Shown: piece by piece, positions 3,520-38,479 of the stretch | How positions within the stretch are numbered: the stretch's first letter is position 1 | Layout: every line of letters begins with the position of its first letter | Origin: an uncultured Spartobacteria bacterium | GTDB lineage: Bacteria; Verrucomicrobiota; Verrucomicrobiia; Chthoniobacterales; Chthoniobacteraceae | Reading direction: 5' to 3' | Assembly: GCA_903919125.1 (NCBI GenBank) | Contig: CAIXGS010000004.1 | Span: 62,001-126,000 of the forward strand | Length of the DNA: 64,000 nucleotides | Position numbers and translations under genes: made by a program | Notes under the pieces: model-generated | Database searches by the model: none | What the model was told of the DNA's origin: nothing | The model's input: the letters and a program-made list of their open reading frames with translations, nothing else

Positions 3520-4857
3520 ATGAAACACTACATCACACTTCTGACCGCCCTGCTGCTCGCCCCGCTGGCAGCGCTGCACGCGGCCGAGCCGCCGCACATC
3601 CTCATCCGCGAGGCGTTGCAGTTTGAGAACATCGGCGACAGCGGGCGGGTGCCGGGGACGATTCGGCTTCTGTATCAGCATCTGCCGGAGGCGACGGTAA
3701 CGCTTTGGCCGTGGCATCTGCATGAGCGCGAGCGGGCGATGCTGACTCGGGCTTTTCCGAAGTTGCGCATCGCTGAGGGCGAGGTGGATGATGCGGGCAC
3801 GGCCTCCACGCCCGCGCTGGCGGAGGCTTGGAAAAGCGCGGACATTTTCATCACCCCGGCGCGTCATGCGAAGACGTTCGAGGTTTGGACGAAATCCGGC
3901 AGGCCGTATGGCTTCTTTGGCTCGTCGTTCGATCCTGTATCGAACCGCAAGGACCGACCGCAGGGCGATACGTTGGATGAGTTGCAAAAGGTCATCGCCG
4001 TGCTGCCAGCGGATCATTTCGATGGCTTGTTCAAGCATCGTGAGGTGTATGACGGCGCGGCTTTCCTCTTCGCCCGCGATACCTATTCGCTCCTGTATTT
4101 GCAGAGGCAAAAGCTGCACACACCCGTTCTGGAGTTTGCCCTGGATGGTACGTTTGGCATCGCCGTGCGCGATGAAAAGCGGGCGCAGAGCTGGCTGCGG
4201 CGCATCGGCGTGGAGGAGGGGAAATTTATCTGCGTGCTGCCGCGTCTGCGCTATACGCCCTACTACCATGTGAAGAATTTGCCGCGCGAAGAGGGCGACT
4301 ACGAGATCGACGCCATCAATGTACGGCACGCGGCCCGCGATCACGCGCCGCTGCGCGACCTCATCACGCTCTGGGTGCGCGAGACGGGGCTAAAGGTCAT
4401 TCTTTGTCCCGAGATGACTTATGAGATCGCCGTGGCGAAGGAGCATCTCTTTGATCCGCTCCCTGACGATGTGAAGCCGCGCGTCATCTGGCGCGACACT
4501 TTCTGGCTCGCTGACGAAGCCTGCTCGCTCTATGCGCGCGCCGTCGCCGTCGTCAGCGCGGAATGCCACTCGCCCATCATCGCGCTCTCGCAAGGCACGC
4601 CCGCCTTCTACGTGCGCAATCCGGCCGACACCGTGAAAGGCCAGATGTTCCGCGACCTCGGCCTGGGCGACTGGGTCTTCGAAAGCAGCACAACCACGGG
4701 TCAGCAACTCTGGGACAAACTCAAACCCATCCACGAAAATCGCGCTGTGGGCCGTGCGAAAGTGGATGCCGCGATGCAGCAGGCGGCAGGCATTCAGAAA
4801 CGCATGGTCCAGGCCATCGCGGATGCGGTGGCGAAACATCGTTCCCAGCAGAAATAG
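3520..4857 (+). CDS. Polysaccharide pyruvyl transferase-fold protein with signal peptide
   Basis: The protein has 445 residues. The ATG at 3520 follows the previous stop by 2 bp and opens a strong signal peptide (MKHYITLLTALLLAPLAALHA). The rest matches the polysaccharide pyruvyl transferase family by overall pattern: an N-terminal ENIGDSG nucleotide-fold entry, a central GSSFDP segment, and a C-terminal SAECHSPIIALSQGTPAFYV block typical of GT-B-like folds. Known members transfer pyruvate from phosphoenolpyruvate to sugars in the cytoplasm. An exported copy is therefore odd and may have another activity or a glycan-binding role. Its place between DUF4838 genes ties it to the same glycan locus. 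The family is fairly certain; the function is not. Confidence 0.75.
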   Translation: MKHYITLLTALLLAPLAALHAAEPPHILIREALQFENIGDSGRVPGTIRLLYQHLPEATVTLWPWHLHERERAMLTRAFPKLRIAEGEVDDAGTASTPALAEAWKSADIFITPARHAKTFEVWTKSGRPYGFFGSSFDPVSNRKDRPQGDTLDELQKVIAVLPADHFDGLFKHREVYDGAAFLFARDTYSLLYLQRQKLHTPVLEFALDGTFGIAVRDEKRAQSWLRRIGVEEGKFICVLPRLRYTPYYHVKNLPREEGDYEIDAINVRHAARDHAPLRDLITLWVRETGLKVILCPEMTYEIAVAKEHLFDPLPDDVKPRVIWRDTFWLADEACSLYARAVAVVSAECHSPIIALSQGTPAFYVRNPADTVKGQMFRDLGLGDWVFESSTTTGQQLWDKLKPIHENRAVGRAKVDAAMQQAAGIQKRMVQAIADAVAKHRSQQK

Positions 4858-4859
4858 CC

Positions 4860-6788
4860 ATGAAGCTCGTCCTTCTCCTTTTCCTCACACTCGCTCATTT
4901 CGGCACGGCATTCGCCGACATCACCCTCGTGCGCGAGGGCAAGGCGCAGGTCGTGATCGTCGTGCCGGAGGGGCTTTCCAAGCAGGTGCAGAGACCGGCG
5001 GCGCAGTTGACGGGCGGGACGATGAGCGTGCCGCTGGCGGCGGTGGAACTGGCAGATTATTTGCAGAAGGTCAGCGGGGTGAGGCCGCTGATCGCCACGG
5101 AGACGCAGAAGGGTGCGGCGGCGGCCTCGCGCATTTACATCGGGCGCTGCAAGGCGAACGCGGACATCGCGGTGCAGGCGGAGGAGTTTGTCATTCGCAC
5201 GAAGGGCAGTGATTTGCACATCTGCGGCGGCGATGAAGGTCCCGGCGGCTTGATTTGCCAAGCCACGCTCTTCGGCATGTATGATTTCATCGAGCGCGAA
5301 CTCGGTGTGCGCTGGCTTTTTCCAGGTGAGCATGGCGAGGTGGTGCCGAAGCGGTCCACGATCACCATTCCCGATCTCGACCGCCGCGAGCAGCCGCGCA
5401 TCGAGAAGCGCAAGGTGCGCAATCAAGCCGTGACGCGTGAGGATACCTTCGCGCCGGTGCTGAAGCAGTGGGGGGTCGCCGTTGACGCTTGGAAGTCCGC
5501 GCAAGGCCCCGAGGCGATGGGCGCGTGGTTTCGCCGCATGAGGCTTGGCGCACGCATCGAGATCGAGGGCGGTCATGCTTACGCGGGCTGGTGGGAGAAA
5601 TACGGGAAGGAACATCCCGAGTGGTTCGCGCTCCAGCCCGACGGCACGCGCACGCAGCAGCCGGAACGCGAACGCTTGTGCAAATCCAACCCCGCGCTCT
5701 GGAATGAAATCGCGCGGGTGCGCATCGCCGAGTTCAAGGCTGATCCGAGCAAGCGCATGGCCTCGCTCGCGCCGAATGACGGAGGCGCCAACAAGTGGTG
5801 CATGTGCGCCGCCTGCCGTGCGCTGGATCCCGCCGATGCACCGAAGCTCCGGAACGACCGCAGCCTCATCGATCCCGCCACGAGGCTGCCCTTTGCCGAA
5901 TATCCCGCGCTCACGGACCGCGTGTTCACATTCTTCAATGAGATCGCCAAACGCGTGCGACGTGAGATGCCTGACCGCGATCTCGTCGCCTACGCCTACT
6001 CCGTGTATCGCACTCCGCCGGTGAAGCTCGGGCCGCTGGAGCCAAACCTCATCATCGGCTACGTCGGACTCGATCCCGCCGACATCGAAGCGTGGTCCCG
6101 CATCGCACCGCGACTCTACCTTCGTCCGAACGACCTCGGCCCCGCCATCGACCTCGGCCTGCCGCGCAACAACGCCGTGCAACTCGCAAGCGCCGTGAAG
6201 TTCGCCGTCGAACACAAAGCCATCGGTTTCGACTTCGACAACTGCCACGGCAACTGGAGCGCCCACGGGCTCGACTACTACGTGCTCTGCAAAGCCCTGT
6301 GGAATCCCACGCTCGATGTCCGCGCCACCATCGCCGACTACTGCCGCGCCGCCTACGGTCCTGCCGCCGCTCCGATGCAGCGCTATCATGAGCGCCTCGA
6401 AAAAATCAGCGACCAAGTCCGCGCCGACCCGCAACTCGCTCCCAAGTCCCCGCACGCAGCAAGGCTGCGCCGCTACTACAGCGATGAGGCGCTCACCGCG
6501 CTGGAGTCCGAAATCCTCGCGGCAAAAAATGCGGTGAATCGCAGTGACGCCGCCCACATGCACGCCTCAGCCCGCATCGAAATGGCCGCCGAGAGCGTCA
6601 AATACGCCCGCCTAATTACTGCGTTGCTAAAAGTCGCCCAAGACAAGAAATCCCCCGCCTACCTCGACAGCCTCACAGCTGTGGAATCCTTCCTGAAAAC
6701 CAAAATCCTCACCCCCGAACTCGCCCCACTCCACAGCCTCCGCTACCTGCGCATGGCCTTGTCGTATGCGGAGCGCGAGGTTGAGTAA
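4860..6788 (+). CDS. DUF4838 secreted glycan-active protein
   Basis: This 642-residue protein starts at the ATG at 4860, 2 bp after the previous stop, with a signal peptide (MKLVLLLFLTLAHFGTAFA). An alpha-glucuronidase-like N-terminal domain (a segment with VELADYLQKVSGVRPLI, then a strand-rich region) precedes the DUF4838 core, which has the conserved Cys cluster CMCAAC at about 5799-5817. No CBM9 or TPR tail follows, so it is the shortest of the three paralogues. The protein is probably periplasmic or exported and acts on the same glycan as its neighbours. The family's chemistry is unproven, so a hydrolase role is inferred from the fold and the context of esterases and a sialidase. Confidence 0.85.
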   Translation: MKLVLLLFLTLAHFGTAFADITLVREGKAQVVIVVPEGLSKQVQRPAAQLTGGTMSVPLAAVELADYLQKVSGVRPLIATETQKGAAAASRIYIGRCKANADIAVQAEEFVIRTKGSDLHICGGDEGPGGLICQATLFGMYDFIERELGVRWLFPGEHGEVVPKRSTITIPDLDRREQPRIEKRKVRNQAVTREDTFAPVLKQWGVAVDAWKSAQGPEAMGAWFRRMRLGARIEIEGGHAYAGWWEKYGKEHPEWFALQPDGTRTQQPERERLCKSNPALWNEIARVRIAEFKADPSKRMASLAPNDGGANKWCMCAACRALDPADAPKLRNDRSLIDPATRLPFAEYPALTDRVFTFFNEIAKRVRREMPDRDLVAYAYSVYRTPPVKLGPLEPNLIIGYVGLDPADIEAWSRIAPRLYLRPNDLGPAIDLGLPRNNAVQLASAVKFAVEHKAIGFDFDNCHGNWSAHGLDYYVLCKALWNPTLDVRATIADYCRAAYGPAAAPMQRYHERLEKISDQVRADPQLAPKSPHAARLRRYYSDEALTALESEILAAKNAVNRSDAAHMHASARIEMAAESVKYARLITALLKVAQDKKSPAYLDSLTAVESFLKTKILTPELAPLHSLRYLRMALSYAEREVE

Positions 6789-19914: not shown

Positions 19915-20616
19915 TTAATCAATTTGATTTTCACTTTCGTCCTCATCTTCGAAAGATGCTTTTGACTGTCCTATCATATTCCGTTCTGACGCTATTTCTT
20001 TAAGCGTACTAACGAGTGCAGCTCGGAAACCGCGAAGGTCAGCAAGTTTTCCGAAGCTCTTATTGCTTTTCTCCTCCTTGGCGTCGATGAGCAGTTGATA
20101 TTTTGACAGCATCAAACCGGAAAGGTCGGATGCAATTTCCAGAGAATCTGAAAAAACATAGACTCTTTCTGAGTCCACGCCCTTAAGGGCAAAGGCACAG
20201 CCTAACTCGAAATAAACGTTCCGATTGCCCCCGGAGACGTCAAAGATCAGAACATCTGCTTCTTTGATTCGGCGCATGATAGAGCCGACTATTGTTGCCC
20301 CATGACGGGCTCGGAGCCGTTTTACGGAAATTCGTAATGGGATAACTCCCGGCTCTCGATCCTTCGCTAACTGCTCAAGAGTTTGAGCCGCTGCCTTGAC
20401 CTCATCGCGCAAAAAGCACCAGTGACTATTCAGTCCACTTTTTGTTTCCCCTGATTGGCCACGACCCCAATCGTAACCAATTAAGACTTGAATATACGGT
20501 GACTGACCAGTGTCAAACTGCTTGCTGCTTGCTGCTTGCTGCTTGCTGCTTGCTGCTTGCTGCTTGCTGCTTGCTGCTTGCTGCTTGCTGCTTGCTGCTT
20601 TGGATTCATCACTCAT
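19915..20616 (-). CDS. TIR-like / nucleotide-binding protein with heptamer-encoded N-terminus
   Basis: This 233-residue protein starts at the ATG at 20616. Residues 6-33 are nearly four copies of a 7-residue unit (SSKQQAA) encoded by about 12 copies of a 7-bp DNA unit. The globular part carries ADVLIFDVSGGNRNVYFELG, a pattern seen in TIR-like and nucleoside deoxyribosyltransferase-like folds, where the Glu is often catalytic. No ATG or GTG start is visible between the repeat and the domain, so translation must cross the repeat. Each gain or loss of one unit would shift the frame. The downstream partner, if any, is unclear, and a defence role is only an inference from the fold. Confidence 0.6.
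   Translation of the reverse strand: MSDESKAASSKQQAASSKQQAASSKQQAASSKQFDTGQSPYIQVLIGYDWGRGQSGETKSGLNSHWCFLRDEVKAAAQTLEQLAKDREPGVIPLRISVKRLRARHGATIVGSIMRRIKEADVLIFDVSGGNRNVYFELGCAFALKGVDSERVYVFSDSLEIASDLSGLMLSKYQLLIDAKEEKSNKSFGKLADLRGFRAALVSTLKEIASERNMIGQSKASFEDEDESENQID
20518..20600. repeat. Heptanucleotide tandem array (unit CTTGCTG, about 12 copies) inside a coding region
   Basis: The array is a nearly perfect head-to-tail run of a 7-bp unit located 14 bp inside the start codon of the TIR-like gene. Three units make 21 bp, giving the 7-residue protein repeat. Because 7 is not divisible by 3, slippage changes the reading frame. Confidence 0.92.
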
Positions 20617-27927: not shown

Positions 27928-29091
27928 TCATGACTTGAGCGTGAGTTTTCCAAATCGTATTGAGCGGCGGTGGCGTTTCTCGTCGCCGCTGTCCCACACA
28001 GCGCGGAACTCGCCGGGCGCTGTTTCGATGAGCGTGGGATAGGAGTTGTGGATGCCAGCGTCGAAGAAGCTGTGCTCGTCGCTCCAGACTCCGCTCGCGG
28101 GCTTCACTTTATAGCGCAGCGCCATGCGACTCCATGCGGGGCCGTCATTGTAAACGTAGAGCTGAGTGCCGGTGCGCGACTGGCCGAACCATCCTTCCGA
28201 TACGGTGTTCCAAAGCTCTGGCTCCTCTTGGGCGATGCTCCACGTTTTGCCGCCGTCGATGCTTGTGCTGGACCACGCGCGGGGAGGAGTGAGCGCGCCG
28301 CCCTCCTTTCGTCCCTCGGCGGTCCGCATGACCATCTTGAGATGCTGCTGCTCGTTAATCACGGCGATCTGGCCTTCGTGTAGGAAGATTTTCCCCGGCT
28401 CTAGCTGCGGCACATAACCGCCTAGGCTCCAATCAAGCAGACTGGTGCTGCGCAGCACAAATTGCTCGCGCTGGCCGAGCGGATCGGCTCGCTTCGTGTT
28501 CCGATGTGCGGGCAGCAGATAAATCGGCTGGCCATTCTCGATAATGCGCTGGATTTCACCAAGAATCACGAGCGGGCCAGTGTAGTGCATAGCAAGTTCG
28601 ACTGGATTCCACGAGCGGCCACCGTCGCCACTGTAGGCCGCTGCGAGATGCGAGTCCTCGCTGTCGGCATAGTTCAATGGACACCGCATGGCAAAGCACC
28701 ACAGCACTTCCTGCCCCGGCGGATGGTAAAGCACCCCATTGCAGTAAGCGAACTGCAAGGCGCCATGCCGCTGTTCGTGATCAAAGATCGTGCTGGGGAT
28801 GCTCCACGAATCGCCGTCGTTGCTGGAAACGATGGCGTCGATGCTGCCCATGTCCCCCTTGCCGGCGATGCCTTTCTGATAAGCCACGACGAGGTGCTTC
28901 TCCTTCCACAAGGCGATGCTGGGTTGCCCAAACAAGGAAGCTCGCGGCTCTTGGTCGGCAGTGCGAACGACACGCACGTCACGGACATCACCAGTGTTTG
29001 GGGCGTTGGTGACTTGGTCTTTGGCGTGCAGAGCGGCCAGCGGTGCAAGCAGCAGGGAGGTGAGGAATGGTATGCTTGTTTTCGAGCTCAT
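27928..29091 (-). CDS. Secreted sialidase-family (BNR) protein
   Basis: This 387-residue protein has the same type of signal peptide as the region 1 proteins (TSLLLAPLAALHA). The mature part is a sialidase-type six-bladed propeller with Asp-boxes SNDGDSW, SGDGGRSW and SIDGGKTW and a C-terminal RSIRFGKLTL. Start and stop overlap the upstream aldolase gene (ATGA at 29088-29091), so it is translated as part of the kinase-aldolase-sialidase operon. Release of a sugar acid that the aldolase and kinase then use is a reasonable inference, but key sialidase Arg residues cannot be confirmed by eye. The repeat at 27537-27904 lies just beyond its 3' end. Confidence 0.82.
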   Translation of the reverse strand: MSSKTSIPFLTSLLLAPLAALHAKDQVTNAPNTGDVRDVRVVRTADQEPRASLFGQPSIALWKEKHLVVAYQKGIAGKGDMGSIDAIVSSNDGDSWSIPSTIFDHEQRHGALQFAYCNGVLYHPPGQEVLWCFAMRCPLNYADSEDSHLAAAYSGDGGRSWNPVELAMHYTGPLVILGEIQRIIENGQPIYLLPAHRNTKRADPLGQREQFVLRSTSLLDWSLGGYVPQLEPGKIFLHEGQIAVINEQQHLKMVMRTAEGRKEGGALTPPRAWSSTSIDGGKTWSIAQEEPELWNTVSEGWFGQSRTGTQLYVYNDGPAWSRMALRYKVKPASGVWSDEHSFFDAGIHNSYPTLIETAPGEFRAVWDSGDEKRHRRSIRFGKLTLKS

Positions 29092-30008
29092 AGGTTTTTC
29101 AGGAGTGGGTTGAGTTCATCGAGAATCTGACGAACTCGCTCGCGTTCAGGCTCGCGAAAACGTCGAAACGGCTCGGCCATGAAATCATCGCAGATGCCTG
29201 AGAGTACAAGCGCGCCCTTAATACCCTTAACGATGGCGGAGCTGTACTTACCGATGCGGTAGAGTGTCTCGCTCACACGCATTACGAGCCCTTGCAACTC
29301 GCGAACGCGTACCATGTCGGCGGATTTCGCTGCTTCGTAGAGCTTCACGTAGAGCTTCGGAAAAATGTTAGCACCGCCGTTCACTCCGCCGTGGGCACGC
29401 GCAAGCACGGCATCGGCGAGCATTTCCTCCGGGCCGACAAGCACAGACCAGTCCGGGCGATGTGGCAGCAATGCGAGGATGCGGTGCAGGTAGATCATGC
29501 TGCACGAACTGTCCTTCAAACCGATAATGCGGGGCTCATCCATTGCACGGCGCACGGTATCCGGTTCCATCGCTACTTTGGTCAGCGCAGGCATATTGTA
29601 TAAGAAGAGCGGCAACGGCAGAGCAGGCACAAGGTGGCTGAGGTATTCCTGCAACTCCGACTGGCTCCCGGGGAGATAATAAGGCGGCGCTACAACGAGC
29701 GAATCTGCGCCGGCATCGGCGGCCCAGCACGCGACTTTGAGGGATTCTTGGAATGCCGTGTCGGTAATCCCTACGAGTACGGGCACGCGGCGGTTCACTT
29801 GGTGGCAGGTACGCTCGATGAGTTCCTTGCGCAGTCGGTAGCTGAGGCTCGGGCCTTCGCCGGTGGTGCCGAGGATGAAAAGCCCCTGCACGCCGCCGTC
29901 GAGAATGTGCTCGATGAGCCGTTCGAGGCCGGGCACGTCGAGAGCATCGCGGTCGCGCAATGGCGTCACCATAGGCGGAACTATTCCGTGATATTTTGGG
30001 AGATTCAT
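29088..30008 (-). CDS. DHDPS/N-acetylneuraminate lyase family aldolase
   Basis: This 306-residue cytoplasmic protein has the length and motifs of the DapA/NanA family: GTTGE at 47-51, catalytic Tyr137 in YNMP, and Schiff-base Lys165 in IIGLKDSS. The family includes dihydrodipicolinate synthases, sialate lyases and 2-keto-3-deoxy sugar acid aldolases. Sequence alone does not fix the substrate. The operon context with an exported sialidase argues for a sugar acid aldolase rather than lysine synthesis. It starts 21 bp after the kinase stop and overlaps the sialidase start by 4 bp. Expression is probably controlled by the divergent AraC regulator. Confidence 0.87.
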   Translation of the reverse strand: MNLPKYHGIVPPMVTPLRDRDALDVPGLERLIEHILDGGVQGLFILGTTGEGPSLSYRLRKELIERTCHQVNRRVPVLVGITDTAFQESLKVACWAADAGADSLVVAPPYYLPGSQSELQEYLSHLVPALPLPLFLYNMPALTKVAMEPDTVRRAMDEPRIIGLKDSSCSMIYLHRILALLPHRPDWSVLVGPEEMLADAVLARAHGGVNGGANIFPKLYVKLYEAAKSADMVRVRELQGLVMRVSETLYRIGKYSSAIVKGIKGALVLSGICDDFMAEPFRRFREPERERVRQILDELNPLLKNL

Positions 30009-30029
30009 TATGAAATTTTACAGGCACGG

Positions 30030-31625
30030 TCAGGAGTTACGTTTGGCAGAGAGGAAGTCGCCAAGCCGCCGATACTCGGCGTAAAGCGCTTCGTAGGCGG
30101 CACGGTGGGAGCGATTCGGTTTGAAGACGGGGGCGGTGCCTGGCTTCGGCACGGCCATAGCACGGATGGCGTCGCGAGGCGCTTTGAACGCCCCTGCAGC
30201 GAGTGAACCGAGAATAGCGGCACCGAGCGCGGGACCTTGCTTGCTCGGATTCACGATAATGCTTTCACCAAGTACGTCGGCGTAGACCTGCACGACGAGC
30301 GGGTTGTGATGCGGCAGACCACCGGTGGCCACGAGCTTCTTCACCGGCACGCCGCCGTTGCGAAGCAACTCGACAATCCAGCGCACACCGAAGGCGGACG
30401 CCTCAAGCAGCGCACGGTAGAGATGCGCTGGGCGGTGATGCAGCGCGAGTCCGGTGAAAGCGCCCTTGAGCGCGCCGTCCATCAGCGGAGTGCGGCAGCC
30501 ATTGAACCAATCCACACACATCACACCTTCTGCGCCGGGGGGCAGTCCGGCGGCTTCGCGGGCAAGGTGGGTGAAATCAGACTGGCCCGTAAGTTTACGC
30601 AGCCAATCAAATGCATCGCCGACGGCGGCTTGACCCGTCTCATAGCCGTAGAAGCCGGGGAGAATTCCATCCTTCACCACGCCCGCAACGCCGGGAACGC
30701 TGCATTCCACTTCGCTGTTGAGCATGTGGCACGAGCTCGTGCCCATCACCATCACGAGCGTGCCGGGTTCCGCCGCGCCTGCGCCCGGAACGCCTGCGTG
30801 CGCATCAATAATAGCCGCGCTAACGGGCGTGCCTTCCGACAGCCCGAGCGTCTTCGCCATCGCGCTAGTAAGGCCGCCTGCAGAAACACCGGGCGCTAGC
30901 AAACGGCCGGGCATCTTGTCTCTCACCACGCGAGCGAACTTCGGATTCACCGCGCGCAGAAAATCTTCCGACGGATAGCCGTCCGTCGCGCTCCACATGC
31001 CCTTGTAGCCAGCCTGGCAAGTCGAGCGAGGAAGTCCCTCCGCCGTACCGCCAACAAGCTGCCAGACCAACCAATCTCCCGCTTCAAGCCAGACCTCAGC
31101 GGCCTCATAGGCGCTGGGGGCGAGTTCGAGAGTCTCGAGCATCTTCGGAAAAAACCACTCCAACCCGATGGTTCCCCCGTAGCGTTGGAGAAAACGTTCA
31201 CCGCGCTCCCGAGCGACGAAATTGATGCGGTCCGTTTGCACCTGCGCGCCGTGATGCTTCCAGAGTTTTGGCCAAGCAAGAGGTTCGGCGGCGAATTCCT
31301 CCAGCACGCACAACGGCGTACCGTCGCGCTTCGTCGGGAGCATCGTGCAGCTTGTAAAATCTACGCCGATACCCAGCACATCACTAGGGAGAGCCTTCGC
31401 CAGACGCAGAGCGGCCAGCGTCGCTTTCGCGGCGGAGTTGATCCAGTCGAGGGGATGCTGTAGCGCGTAATGCTGGGGTAACTTCTTCTTCGAGCCGGGC
31501 AGCGACTCAACGATTTGCCCGTGCGGATACTTTGCCACGGTTGACGCCAGTTCGCGTCCCCGCAGATCCACAAGCACCGCCCGCACACTCTCCGTTCCGA
31601 AATCGAGACCGAGGGATGCCTTCAT
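30030..31625 (-). CDS. araB: FGGY carbohydrate kinase, ribulokinase-like
   Basis: This 531-residue cytoplasmic kinase has the FGGY fold. The phosphate-binding start LGLDFGTESVRAVLVD and the block GIGVDFTSCTMLP are characteristic of ribulokinases, as is YGGTIGLEWFFPKMLETLE. The C-terminal domain has the ATP-binding KKLVATGGLPHHNPL segment. Ribulokinases phosphorylate L-ribulose and related ketopentoses. No isomerase or epimerase gene accompanies it here, so the true substrate may differ. It is the first gene of a three-gene operon and diverges from the AraC-type regulator across 121 bp. Confidence 0.85.
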   Translation of the reverse strand: MKASLGLDFGTESVRAVLVDLRGRELASTVAKYPHGQIVESLPGSKKKLPQHYALQHPLDWINSAAKATLAALRLAKALPSDVLGIGVDFTSCTMLPTKRDGTPLCVLEEFAAEPLAWPKLWKHHGAQVQTDRINFVARERGERFLQRYGGTIGLEWFFPKMLETLELAPSAYEAAEVWLEAGDWLVWQLVGGTAEGLPRSTCQAGYKGMWSATDGYPSEDFLRAVNPKFARVVRDKMPGRLLAPGVSAGGLTSAMAKTLGLSEGTPVSAAIIDAHAGVPGAGAAEPGTLVMVMGTSSCHMLNSEVECSVPGVAGVVKDGILPGFYGYETGQAAVGDAFDWLRKLTGQSDFTHLAREAAGLPPGAEGVMCVDWFNGCRTPLMDGALKGAFTGLALHHRPAHLYRALLEASAFGVRWIVELLRNGGVPVKKLVATGGLPHHNPLVVQVYADVLGESIIVNPSKQGPALGAAILGSLAAGAFKAPRDAIRAMAVPKPGTAPVFKPNRSHRAAYEALYAEYRRLGDFLSAKRNS

Positions 31626-31746
31626 TTGGTTTGATGATTTATGGGGTTTAATTGGGATTGTGAAGGATCGTGAATCAGGTTTTTAGAATGGTCCATTATT
31701 TTGATTTTGTCTTTCAATTGAATCCATTGGACGATATTACACATCT
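31626..31746. promoter_or_regulatory. Divergent promoter region with two short palindromes
   Basis: This 121-bp region separates the AraC regulator from the kinase operon. It contains two perfect odd-length palindromes, AATGGTCCATT at 31687-31697 and TCCATTGGA at 31723-31731, with centres 35 bp apart. They share the CCATT core and are good candidates for AraC-family operator half-sites. The segment between them is AT-rich. Confidence 0.5.
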
Positions 31747-32643
31747 ATGTCAGGAAAGCATCCGCGACACAGCGAACAGATCGCCGGACTGGAACTAGAC
31801 TTACCGCTGGTCAAAGCGCTTGGCGCGATCCGCGCCCGCTCCGTGCGTCGGCTCGTGTGGCATTCCCATGACGATTATGAGCTACTATTCATGCTTGAAG
31901 GTGCCAACAGCTATGAAATCCGTGGGCAGGACACCGTCACTTTGGCCGGCGGACATCTGCTGCTGATGCCCCCAGGTGCAGTTCATCGTGGCCGCGATGA
32001 CGTACGCATGCCGTCGGTTCTTTGCGGCATCCTTTTTCAGCCATGCGGGCACCAAGCTTGGGTGAACTCGATTTTCACACGCGAAGAATTGTACCGGATG
32101 GATCTGGAACTCCAAAAGCACCCTTTTGCCGTGCGCCCATTTAATCGCGAACTGATGCGAATCCTCACGCGGCTGATGCAATACGCCGAAGCCTTCAAAT
32201 TGGATCGCCGCGATTTCTTCGCCAAAGCCAATATTCGCGCCCTTGCGTGTCTCGCCATCATCGAATTCCTGCGCCAACTCGCCACCCCAGTCCGCGCCGA
32301 CGCCGCCACCATTGCATCCGAAGCACGCGACTATTTGGCGAAGCGATTTGCCGAGCCCATTCAAATGACCGACTTGGCGCGACACCTCGGTCTGAGCCGC
32401 GCAAGGATGTTTGAAGTTTTCAAAAAAGACACGGGCCTTACACCCAACGACTACCTTGTGCGCCAGCGCATCGAACATGCCAGAGAACAACTCTCCAAAA
32501 CTTCGCGCGCGATAACGAACATCGCCTTAGACGTCGGATTTTCTTCCAGCCAGTATTTCGCAAACGTTTTCCGGCGCTACACCGGCATGACGCCATTGGA
32601 ACACCGCAAGCGCACCATCGCAACCAGCGGTGCGAGCAAGTAG
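31747..32643 (+). CDS. AraC-family transcription regulator with cupin sensor domain
   Basis: The protein has 298 residues. Residues 30-110 form a cupin sugar-sensing domain (HSHDDYELLFMLEG then LLLMPPGAVHRG). Residues 200-298 contain two helix-turn-helix motifs of the AraC family, the second ending ALDVGFSSSQYFANVFRRYT. Such regulators sense a sugar and switch on catabolic genes. It is divergent from the kinase-aldolase-sialidase operon and shares its control region, so that operon is the likely target, along with its own gene. The protein is complete. Confidence 0.92.
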   Translation: MSGKHPRHSEQIAGLELDLPLVKALGAIRARSVRRLVWHSHDDYELLFMLEGANSYEIRGQDTVTLAGGHLLLMPPGAVHRGRDDVRMPSVLCGILFQPCGHQAWVNSIFTREELYRMDLELQKHPFAVRPFNRELMRILTRLMQYAEAFKLDRRDFFAKANIRALACLAIIEFLRQLATPVRADAATIASEARDYLAKRFAEPIQMTDLARHLGLSRARMFEVFKKDTGLTPNDYLVRQRIEHAREQLSKTSRAITNIALDVGFSSSQYFANVFRRYTGMTPLEHRKRTIATSGASK

Positions 32644-35765: not shown

Positions 35766-36022
35766 AAGAGAACTAAGTCTGACTGGAAGACAATCAATAG
35801 TCGCCCCCACGCATTAGAGGGAACCTAAGTGCCTCACTACTTTTCGTGTTTTATGAATGAGCCTCGATGGATTTGATTGGGAAATAGGCAACGGTTGTGC
35901 GAGTGCAACGGAACCCGCTGGCGGACTCGAAGATGGCTTACTTCATTGACACCCCAAAACTGAAGCAGGTGAATTAACCGTTGCCTCGCTTTCCGTCTAT
36001 TAACCAATACTCTACGCACTGC

Positions 36023-38479
36023 ATGAACCGCGCACTCCTCGCCTGCTCCACCCTCATCGCCCTCTCTCTCAACACGCGTTTAGCGCTCTCGGCTGACGCT
36101 CTGCAACCGAAGCAAATCGGCCTAGCCTCAGCGAAGGACATTTACCACAAGGGTTGGATCGACTTTAACAAGGATGGCAAGAAGGACGTCTTCGAAGACC
36201 CCTCTCAGCCTCAAGACAAGCGAATCGACGATCTGCTCTCAAAGATGAATGTCGAGGAGAAGACTTGTCAGCTCGCCACGCTGTACGGCTACAGGCGCGT
36301 ACTGAAGGACCCATTGCCAACGCCGAAGTGGAAGGACGAGATTTGGAAGGATGGCATCGCGAACATTGATGAAATGCACAACGGCGTGGGCAAATCTGGC
36401 GCTGCGGACAATCCGCACATCGCCACGCCCGAAGCAACGGTGCGCGCTCTGAACGAAGTGCAACGCTGGTTCATTGAGGAGACGCGCTTGGGCATTCCGG
36501 TCGAATACACAAATGAAGGGATTCGCGGCGCGAACTATCGGAAGACGGTAAACTTCCCGGCGAACATCTCGCTTGGTGCAACCTGGGATCGTGAACTCGT
36601 GAGTCGTATAGGCGATGTGGTGGCGCGCGAGTCGAAGGCGATTGGTTATCGCAACGTCTACGCGCCCTTGCTCGACCTCACTCGTGATCCGCGCTGGGGC
36701 CGTGTGGTAGAATGCTACGGCGAAGATCCGTATCTCGTAGCGGAGCTCGGTTTGCGCATGGCGGGCGCGATTCGTGCCGCCGGTTTGGTGAACACCTGCA
36801 AACACTTCGGAGTTTACAGCGAGCCCAAGGGCGGCCGCGATGGCAATGCGCGCACCGATCCTCACATCGCACCGCGCGAGATGGAGATGCTGCATTTGCG
36901 GCCGTGGGAGCGCATGGTGCGCGAAGGCGGACTGCTTGGCGTGATGAGCTCCTACAACGATTACGACGGCGTGCCGATCTCCGGAAGTTCTGACTTCCTC
37001 ATCGATCGCTTGCGCAAACAGTGGGGATTCAATGGCTACGTTGTCTCTGACAGCGAGGCCGTGGAATATCTCTTCACCAAGCATCACGTGGCATCCTCCG
37101 CAGACGATGCCGCCGCGATGTTCCTGCGTGAAGGAGGCAACGTGCGCACACACTTCAAGACGCCAGACACCTTTATCTTGCCCGTGCGCCGGGAGATTGC
37201 AGCGGGGCGGCTCTCGATGGATGTCATCGATGCTCGCGTGCGCGATGTGCTGCGGGTGAAGTTCATCGAAGGCTTGTTCGATTCGCCTTACATCAATCCT
37301 GAAACAGCAGGTAAAGAGATCGGAGCCCCCGAGTCGAAGCAAGTCGCGCTGCGCGCCGCGCGCGAGTCCATGGTGCTGCTGAAGAACGACAAGCAAACGC
37401 TTCCATTTAGCAAAAGCCTGAAACGCGTGCTTGTCTGCGGCCCGACGGCGAAGATGACGGAGACTTCGTACGACCGCTACGGATCGAATGGCGGCGAAGT
37501 CATTTCACCACTCGAAGGCATTCAGACCTTCCTTAAAAACACGGGCACCGAGGTCGTCTTTGTCCAAGGTTGCGAGGTGACCGACAAACGCTGGCCAGAG
37601 TCTGAACTGTTCCCCGAACCACCCTCGGGCGATGAAGCGGCGCAGATCGCCGCAGCCGTGGACAAGGCGAAGAACGTGGACGCCATCATCGTGTTCGTGG
37701 GTGATTCGGATGCGACCATCGGTGAATCGAAGAGCCGCACCAGTCTCGACTTGCCCGGCTACCAAAATGATCTTGTGCGCGAGTTGGTGAAAACGGGCAA
37801 GCCCATGGTCGCTGTGCTGCTCATTGGTAAACCCACATCGATCAACTACATCAACCGCCACGTGCCCGCCGTGCTCAACGCCGGCATCCCCGGCGAGTCC
37901 GGTGGCATCGCCATCGCCGAGACTTTGTTCGGAGACTACAACCCTGGCGGCCGTCTGCCTGCCACCTTCCCAAAGACGGTAGGCCAGTTGCCTTTCAATT
38001 TCCCTTTCAAGCCCGCCAGCCACGCCTCGCAATCAAAAACGATTGATCCAAACGGCTTCGGCAACAGCATGGCCGAGGGGGCGCTGTATCCCTTCGGCTT
38101 TGGTTTGAGCTACACCACGTTCGCGTACAGCGGCCTCAAGGTGACTCCCGCGCAGATCCCAGCGAACGGCGAAGTAACCGTCAGCTGTGACATCAAGAAC
38201 ACGGGCGACCGCGAGGGGGATGAGGTCGCCCAGCTCTATTTCCACCAAGAAACCAGCAGTGTCACGACCTATGAGCTCAATCTCTGCGGCTTCGAACGCG
38301 TGCATCTCAAGCCCGGTGAAACCAAAACCGTGAGCTACAAGCTGCCAACATCCGAGCTGGAGATTATCGGTCGCGCAGGCAAGCGAGTGGTCGAGTCAGG
38401 CACTTTCAAGGTGATGGTCGGCAGCTCATCGGCGGACCTTCGCTTAAATGGTAGCTTTGAAGTCGAGAAGACAAAGTAG
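36023..38479 (+). CDS. Secreted GH3 beta-glycosidase
   Basis: The protein has 818 residues from the ATG at 36023, which opens a signal peptide; the earlier frame start has none. The GH3 N-domain carries the motif CKHF near 259-262 and the nucleophile Asp343 in GYVVSDSEAV. A second GH3 domain and a fibronectin III-like tail follow (FGFGLSYTTFAYSGLKVTP then DEVAQLYF). An EF-hand-like loop, DFNKDGKKDVFED, near residue 47 may bind calcium. GH3 enzymes remove terminal beta-linked glucose or xylose. The gene is single, with a 257-bp upstream gap. Confidence 0.92.
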   Translation: MNRALLACSTLIALSLNTRLALSADALQPKQIGLASAKDIYHKGWIDFNKDGKKDVFEDPSQPQDKRIDDLLSKMNVEEKTCQLATLYGYRRVLKDPLPTPKWKDEIWKDGIANIDEMHNGVGKSGAADNPHIATPEATVRALNEVQRWFIEETRLGIPVEYTNEGIRGANYRKTVNFPANISLGATWDRELVSRIGDVVARESKAIGYRNVYAPLLDLTRDPRWGRVVECYGEDPYLVAELGLRMAGAIRAAGLVNTCKHFGVYSEPKGGRDGNARTDPHIAPREMEMLHLRPWERMVREGGLLGVMSSYNDYDGVPISGSSDFLIDRLRKQWGFNGYVVSDSEAVEYLFTKHHVASSADDAAAMFLREGGNVRTHFKTPDTFILPVRREIAAGRLSMDVIDARVRDVLRVKFIEGLFDSPYINPETAGKEIGAPESKQVALRAARESMVLLKNDKQTLPFSKSLKRVLVCGPTAKMTETSYDRYGSNGGEVISPLEGIQTFLKNTGTEVVFVQGCEVTDKRWPESELFPEPPSGDEAAQIAAAVDKAKNVDAIIVFVGDSDATIGESKSRTSLDLPGYQNDLVRELVKTGKPMVAVLLIGKPTSINYINRHVPAVLNAGIPGESGGIAIAETLFGDYNPGGRLPATFPKTVGQLPFNFPFKPASHASQSKTIDPNGFGNSMAEGALYPFGFGLSYTTFAYSGLKVTPAQIPANGEVTVSCDIKNTGDREGDEVAQLYFHQETSSVTTYELNLCGFERVHLKPGETKTVSYKLPTSELEIIGRAGKRVVESGTFKVMVGSSSADLRLNGSFEVEKTK

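Follow-up and report, generated by a model that had tools for sequence, protein, structure and literature searches.

A compact operon joining a ribulokinase-family kinase, a DHDPS-type aldolase and a sialidase-fold protein in an uncultured Spartobacteria bacterium, with a possible role in ulosonate catabolism

What sugar would a bacterium consume with a ribulokinase-family kinase, a DHDPS-type aldolase and an exported sialidase-fold protein, all encoded side by side next to an AraC-type regulator? The question is raised by a stretch of 64,000 nucleotides (nt; hereafter, the window) from an uncultured Spartobacteria bacterium, which is part of contig CAIXGS010000004.1 (C4) in assembly GCA_903919125.1, a genome of 4.34 Mb in 87 contigs that is 95% complete. 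An earlier note on this DNA had recognized four genes here, and family scans agree with it in position and in family (ribulokinase/FGGY, DHDPS, BNR_2 and AraC type). The features are as follows; loci (L) and genomes (G) used for comparison are given by our own numbers.

30030..31625, minus strand: FGGY kinase of the ribulokinase (AraB) family, in a separate clade (profiles, 3QDK match, tree, contact residues); proposed to convert D-ribulose to D-ribulose-5-phosphate
29088..30008, minus strand: class I aldolase of the DHDPS/N-acetylneuraminate lyase (NAL) superfamily (profiles, 4XKY match, residues, tree); proposed to cleave an ulosonate (Kdo) to pyruvate and D-arabinose
27928..29091, minus strand: exported six-bladed propeller of sialidase fold (profile, predicted model, residues); proposed to release ulosonate from glycan
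31747..32643, plus strand: divergent AraC-family regulator (profiles; in other genomes, comparable regulators lie upstream of the aldolase in divergent orientation)
31626..31746, no strand: AT-rich divergent promoter region of 121 nt between kinase and regulator

On the minus strand the order is kinase, aldolase, propeller. A gap of only 21 nt separates the first two, the aldolase stop and the propeller start share 4 nt (ATGA), and the regulator gene diverges from the kinase across 121 nt. The three genes form a real, compact operon with a divergent regulator, and since the pairing of aldolase and kinase recurs in Pirellula, in Chthoniobacter and in another metagenome-assembled genome (MAG) of Verrucomicrobia, the arrangement is more than chance.

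Our tentative answer, to which we give a little less than an even chance, is that the operon catabolizes an eight-carbon 2-keto-3-deoxy sugar acid, most likely 3-deoxy-D-manno-octulosonate (Kdo). Gram-negative bacteria, plants and many algae all produce Kdo, and its proposed source here is lipopolysaccharide (LPS), the plant pectin rhamnogalacturonan II (RG-II) or green-algal walls. The route that we infer would begin with the release of the ulosonate by the exported propeller, followed by its import through a transporter encoded outside the operon. The aldolase would then cleave it to pyruvate and D-arabinose, a FucI-like isomerase from another locus would turn D-arabinose into D-ribulose, and the AraB-like kinase would yield D-ribulose-5-phosphate, which could enter the pentose phosphate pathway without an epimerase; the AraC-type regulator may sense an intermediate. 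FucI-type isomerases act on the L-fuco/D-arabino configuration. Kdo appears to be the best substrate because a lyase that releases pyruvate, an isomerase of FucI type and a pentulokinase can be joined in a single chain. Kdo is the common C8 ulosonate, present in LPS, RG-II and algae (PMC6200933), NanA-type lyases both cleave it (PMC13220900) and synthesize it from D-arabinose and pyruvate (PMC4016182), and certain strains of E. coli use D-arabinose by means of a D-ribulokinase located within the fucose locus (PMC12307932).

The aldolase scores 177 bits against Pfam DHDPS, passes the cut-off of no NCBIfam equivalog, and falls below both NCBIfam NanA profiles (101 and 125 bits; cut-offs 382 and 281); the closest solved protein is the “DHDPS” 4XKY of Bacteroides thetaiotaomicron (E 3e-107). 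Relatives are encoded at 61 loci in Verrucomicrobiota, Planctomycetota, Lentisphaerota, Bacteroidota and others, the nearest being in Verrucomicrobia MAGs. The Schiff-base Lys165 and catalytic Tyr137 (NanA numbering) are kept in 69 of 69 aligned aldolases. The arginine of the DapA motif YNxPxR, which binds the semialdehyde carboxylate, is leucine in the window aldolase and was not seen among the listed residues of its relatives in the alignment. The family has a signature of its own, GPE(E/A) plus GGAN, where NanA has GYDE plus STYN, and together with 4XKY it is separated from the E. coli proteins NanA, DapA and YagE in a tree (support 94/84) whose outgroup branches are long. Given the invariant lysine and tyrosine, the replaced DapA arginine, the signature and the separation in the tree, the enzyme most likely acts on a sugar acid rather than in lysine biosynthesis. 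4XKY itself reads YNMPTHT at the place of the DapA arginine, and for this reason its name, dihydrodipicolinate synthase, seems doubtful.

The kinase scores 634 bits against the ribulokinase profile PRK04123 (cut-off 428) and 553 bits against TIGR01234, slightly under the cut-off of 583, and it matches the solved ribulokinase 3QDK at E 4e-141. In a tree of 42 kinases it belongs to a nine-member clade with support of 100/100, which includes Pirellula, Chthoniobacter, two more Verrucomicrobia loci and two genomes of the class, whereas E. coli AraB (on a long branch) and 13 kinases from AraA-bearing genomes fall in a separate clade of 22 rows. Three L-ribulose contacts of 3QDK, Lys208, Asp274 and Glu329, are conserved in the window kinase and its relatives. 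A fourth contact in that structure is Ala96 (PMC4880283), and here the window kinase has Ser92; the position is Ser in all nine members of its clade and Gly in 13 of 13 AraA-linked kinases. In SePSK, a D-ribulokinase, Ser serves as a ligand of D-ribulose (PMC4880283). The earlier note had suggested a changed kinase specificity, which need not be invoked, as ordinary E. coli AraB phosphorylates D-ribulose (PMC12307932). It is from the neighbouring genes and this promiscuity of AraB that we infer a D-ribulokinase role.

If the kinase acts on D-ribulose, which isomerase supplies it? Genes flanking the aldolase relatives were located by tblastn, and the kinase clade adjoins a FucI-like gene in L028, L033, L048, L050, L052, L063, G306 and G307, with no class II aldolase or epimerase beside the kinase-isomerase pairs in the neighbourhoods examined. 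The aldolase, in turn, adjoins the FucI-like isomerase in L028, L031, L033, L048, L050, L052, L053 and in G152 and G071 (L144, L145). An example is Blastopirellula marina (L053), where the order is symporter, aldolase, isomerase and FGGY pentulose kinase, the kinase's place being taken by a member of another subfamily (TIGR01315). Across 38 aldolase-bearing genomes, the isomerase occurs in eight of the nine that have the kinase clade and in 5 of the 29 that do not (Fisher p 2e-4, which is only a guide, the genomes being related). In an Akkermansiaceae MAG (L063), the kinase and the isomerase are directly preceded by what an internal deletion has left of an aldolase gene. The remnant (L063:9990-10230) retains ~35 residues from each end in frame and the other two genes are intact, which reflects either a pathway whose first step was lost or an assembly fault. 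Aldolase relatives also have a major facilitator superfamily (MFS) transporter of the galactonate type or a sodium:solute symporter (SSS) alongside.

The FucI-like family has no NCBIfam name. Its gene has ~540 codons and scores against Fucose_iso_C at 30.7 bits in L048 and 25.0 in the copy of the genome under study (cut-off 29.3); its invariant motifs FNEVDE, LHDVRW and ANH align with E. coli FucI. Alignment of the family profile to single E. coli sequences by hhalign gave low probabilities (FucI 3.7, AraA 0.3) and was used for motif positions only, while a poor AlphaFold model (predicted local distance difference test, pLDDT, 54) has arabinose and fucose isomerases as its first matches, a weak indication. 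The FucI-like enzyme is no simple replacement for AraA, since in one locus (L142:6579-12156, G162) it is encoded as a fourth member alongside a full araD-araA-araB set. In Chthoniobacter flavus Ellin428 the FucI-like gene (L028:12657-14249) has three in-frame TGA stops and is either a pseudogene or affected by sequence errors.

The genome was also searched family by family for the partners of the standard routes. No AraA (PF02610) was found in it, the same search scoring above the cut-off in E. coli and in 72 of the class's 286 genomes, and NanE was likewise absent from the genome, with a control search positive in E. coli and others. There is no AraD among its three Aldolase_II genes: the first is mtnB within a methionine-salvage cluster, the second is rhamnulose/fuculose-aldolase-like (RhaD/FucA-like) and lies beside the FucI-like isomerase, and the third, a reading frame of 730 residues with another FGGY kinase next to it, would by its neighbour and length be a RhaD-type fusion. 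AraD or FucA had been considered as the fate of the kinase product and was dropped once the Aldolase_II hits proved not to be AraD. As AraA, AraD and NanE were not found, the standard route of arabinose use and the nan route are both incomplete in the assembly. The earlier note had named, as evidence against itself, standard clades for both enzymes with the usual partners elsewhere in the genome; this evidence did not emerge, for the kinase lies outside the AraA-linked clade, with Ser for Gly at the pentulose contact, and those partners are missing. These absences and the separate clade support in part its suggestion of a new sugar-acid route, for which the substrates named here are proposals. 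The missing piece, the FucI-like isomerase, lies outside the window on contig C41.

The propeller scores 54 bits against BNR_2, has no NCBIfam name and drew nothing from a phmmer search of PDB sequences; its N-terminus, judged from sequence, resembles a signal peptide. Its AlphaFold model (pLDDT 84) has the six-bladed sialidase fold of glycoside hydrolase family 33 (GH33) and matches solved GH33 sialidases at Z 34-37, including S. pneumoniae NanA at Z 36.8, with a root-mean-square deviation of 3.0 over 338 residues. Asp80, Glu239, Arg256, Arg322 and Tyr351 are invariant in eight homologues, the putative catalytic Asp, Glu and Tyr being assigned from sequence rather than from superposed coordinates, and their spacings resemble those of the M. 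viridifaciens sialidase. The protein probably retains catalysis as a hydrolase, with an altered specificity. Of the earlier claim of an exported sialidase, the fold stands; “sialidase” is best read as a fold name, from which activity would be predicted, and the first arginine of the carboxylate-binding triad is absent. In at least 17 loci, genes of other sialidase-fold families are found no more than 10 kb from the aldolase, and this upholds the link between the aldolase family and such proteins. The RG-II enzyme BT1020, presumably a sialidase-family hydrolase of ketodeoxy sugars, is an unconfirmed lead and is mentioned only as such.

The regulator has HTH_18 and AraC_binding domains and shares just 27% identity with E. 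coli AraC across 245 residues; it is 39-45% identical over its full length to regulators in L011, L012, L025 and L154, which stand divergently 101-139 nt upstream of the aldolase, and similar full-length regulators (39-45%) precede sialidase-like genes in L006 and L029. By these similarities, the regulator goes with the aldolase rather than with arabinose. In the 121-nt region between it and the kinase, neither a sigma-70-type promoter nor a clear operator-like repeat was found.

Compared with known systems, the proposed route shares a FucI-type isomerase, an FGGY kinase and an epimerase-free path to D-ribulose-5-phosphate with the D-arabinose use of E. coli B and Klebsiella (FucI and the D-ribulokinase DarK; PMC12307932), but here an aldolase encoded together with the kinase would supply the pentose, the kinase belongs to the AraB family and the isomerase is at another locus. 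Like the nan system (NanA-NanE-NanK plus sialidase), it combines a pyruvate-releasing DHDPS-superfamily lyase with a sialidase-fold hydrolase, yet NanE is absent, a pentulokinase replaces the N-acetylmannosamine (ManNAc) kinase, and GPEE/GGAN stand for the GYDE/STYN of NanA. Like araBAD-araC, it sets an AraB-family kinase divergent from an AraC-family regulator, whereas this genome has no AraA or AraD, and kinase clade and regulator alike are set apart from the arabinose system. Kdo aldolase activity (EC 4.1.2.23), described in the 1960s, would correspond to the reaction proposed here, Kdo to pyruvate and D-arabinose, and the B. thetaiotaomicron protein 4XKY is of the same aldolase family, with GPEE and GGAN motifs in both.

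Several findings weigh against the Kdo route. The single FucI-like isomerase of the genome lies on C41 beside a class II aldolase of fuc/rha type and clusters with fuc-locus copies rather than with the aldolase-linked type; by this siting and grouping, it may serve L-fucose only. The FucI-like gene was not found in 25 of the 38 aldolase-bearing genomes, and at the thresholds applied both kinase and isomerase are missing from the genome whose aldolase is the nearest relative (L004, 86%), so that the aldolase family also works without them; across the 286 genomes, the presence of aldolase and FucI-like gene is not significantly linked (p 0.09). The operon has no transporter gene. In the propeller family the first triad arginine (YRIP motif) is Gly or Trp, leaving the triad incomplete, and orthologues in G232 (89%) and G011 (71%) stand without an adjacent aldolase or kinase, which makes the propeller an accessory gene not conserved with the aldolase.

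The foremost alternative, less likely than the Kdo route, is that aldolase and kinase serve different sugars. Cleavage of some other 2-keto-3-deoxy acid by the aldolase would yield, besides pyruvate, an aldehyde for which no pentulokinase is required, and the kinase would take up D-arabinose or D-ribulose set free from the same polymer. The aldolase family is indeed widespread without kinase and isomerase, the kinase-isomerase pair occurs without a nearby aldolase in L195 and L196, and the neighbourhoods are mixed, with FGE-sulfatase-like proteins (FGE, formylglycine-generating enzyme), DUF6298 proteins and FG-GAP proteins. However, the kinase clade and the aldolase are neighbours in lineages that lie apart on the aldolase tree (the window, L028, L033 and Pirellula), and this recurrence is hard to explain without a shared pathway. 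Catabolism of a sialic acid, N-acetylneuraminate (Neu5Ac) or deaminoneuraminate (KDN), with the kinase recruited for ManNAc or mannose, is improbable, even though the propeller has the sialidase fold, the aldolase has NAL-like residues, and sialate lyases are known from Verrucomicrobia and Planctomycetes (PMC2693436): NanE is missing where its control was positive, the aldolase reaches 101 bits against a NanA cut-off of 382, and one triad arginine is absent. FGGY ribulokinases, moreover, use ketoses as substrates. More improbable still is a variant L-arabinose pathway in which a FucI-like enzyme isomerizes arabinose, AraB is the kinase and the epimerase is a class II aldolase. A nearby xylosidase/arabinosidase-like gene of glycoside hydrolase family 3 (GH3), the membership of the kinase in the AraB family, and a locus (L143) with a FucI-like gene beside AraB and a class II aldolase would suit it, but AraA is lacking, the three Aldolase_II hits are MtnB, RhaD/FucA-like and a RhaD-type fusion, the kinase lies outside the AraA-linked clade, no epimerase accompanies the kinase-isomerase pairs, and the aldolase is left unexplained. 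Chance neighbours or misassembly is the least probable account, for although the genome is in 87 contigs and a sibling's propeller orthologue has a different context, the genes share one strand, overlap and close spacing, the kinase-aldolase pairing recurs in other genera, and similar regulators stand beside the aldolase.

The operon is a plausible variant route of ulosonate catabolism. The bolder form of the Kdo proposal, a dedicated scavenging operon with a propeller of two-arginine pocket, a misnamed DHDPS-family Kdo aldolase and a ribulokinase from a FucI-linked clade, we consider rather doubtful. If true, it would provide genes for Kdo aldolase activity spread over Planctomycetota, Verrucomicrobiota, Lentisphaerota and Bacteroidota; a literature search turned up no Kdo aldolase gene and no Kdo catabolic operon or gene cluster, and we know of no gene or operon dedicated to this activity. 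To our knowledge, Kdo consumption by environmental bacteria has hardly been described, and the operon supplies testable genes for it. It also ties a pentulokinase clade to a FucI-like isomerase rather than to araBAD, and suggests that the names “dihydrodipicolinate synthase” and “ribulokinase” may mislead annotation in Bacteroides and in bacteria of the Planctomycetes-Verrucomicrobia-Chlamydiae (PVC) group.

Some further observations were made on related clusters. At L098:4716-13627 (G223), another member of the kinase clade has as neighbours a sulfatase-like gene, a ribokinase, a fructose-6-phosphate-aldolase/transaldolase-like gene and two sialidase-like proteins, and that genome additionally has a normal, AraA-linked AraB. 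Another conserved aldolase cluster, in genomes of Limisphaerales type (L015, L016, L018, L019, L021, L024, L026, L027 and L064), comprises an MFS transporter, the aldolase, an MGH1-like glycosidase, a DUF6298 protein and an uncharacterized secreted family of ~560 residues. Within the window, the GH3 enzyme (35981-38479) lies 3.3 kb beyond the regulator, outside the operon, and its best NCBIfam match, beta-xylosidase/alpha-L-arabinosidase, is far below the cut-off. The protein at 19915-20616 weakly resembles Nuc_deoxyrib_tr and the CAP12/Pycsar TIR domain, with both scores under the cut-off, and two DUF4838 proteins are encoded 2 kb apart at 103-2628 and 4563-6788.

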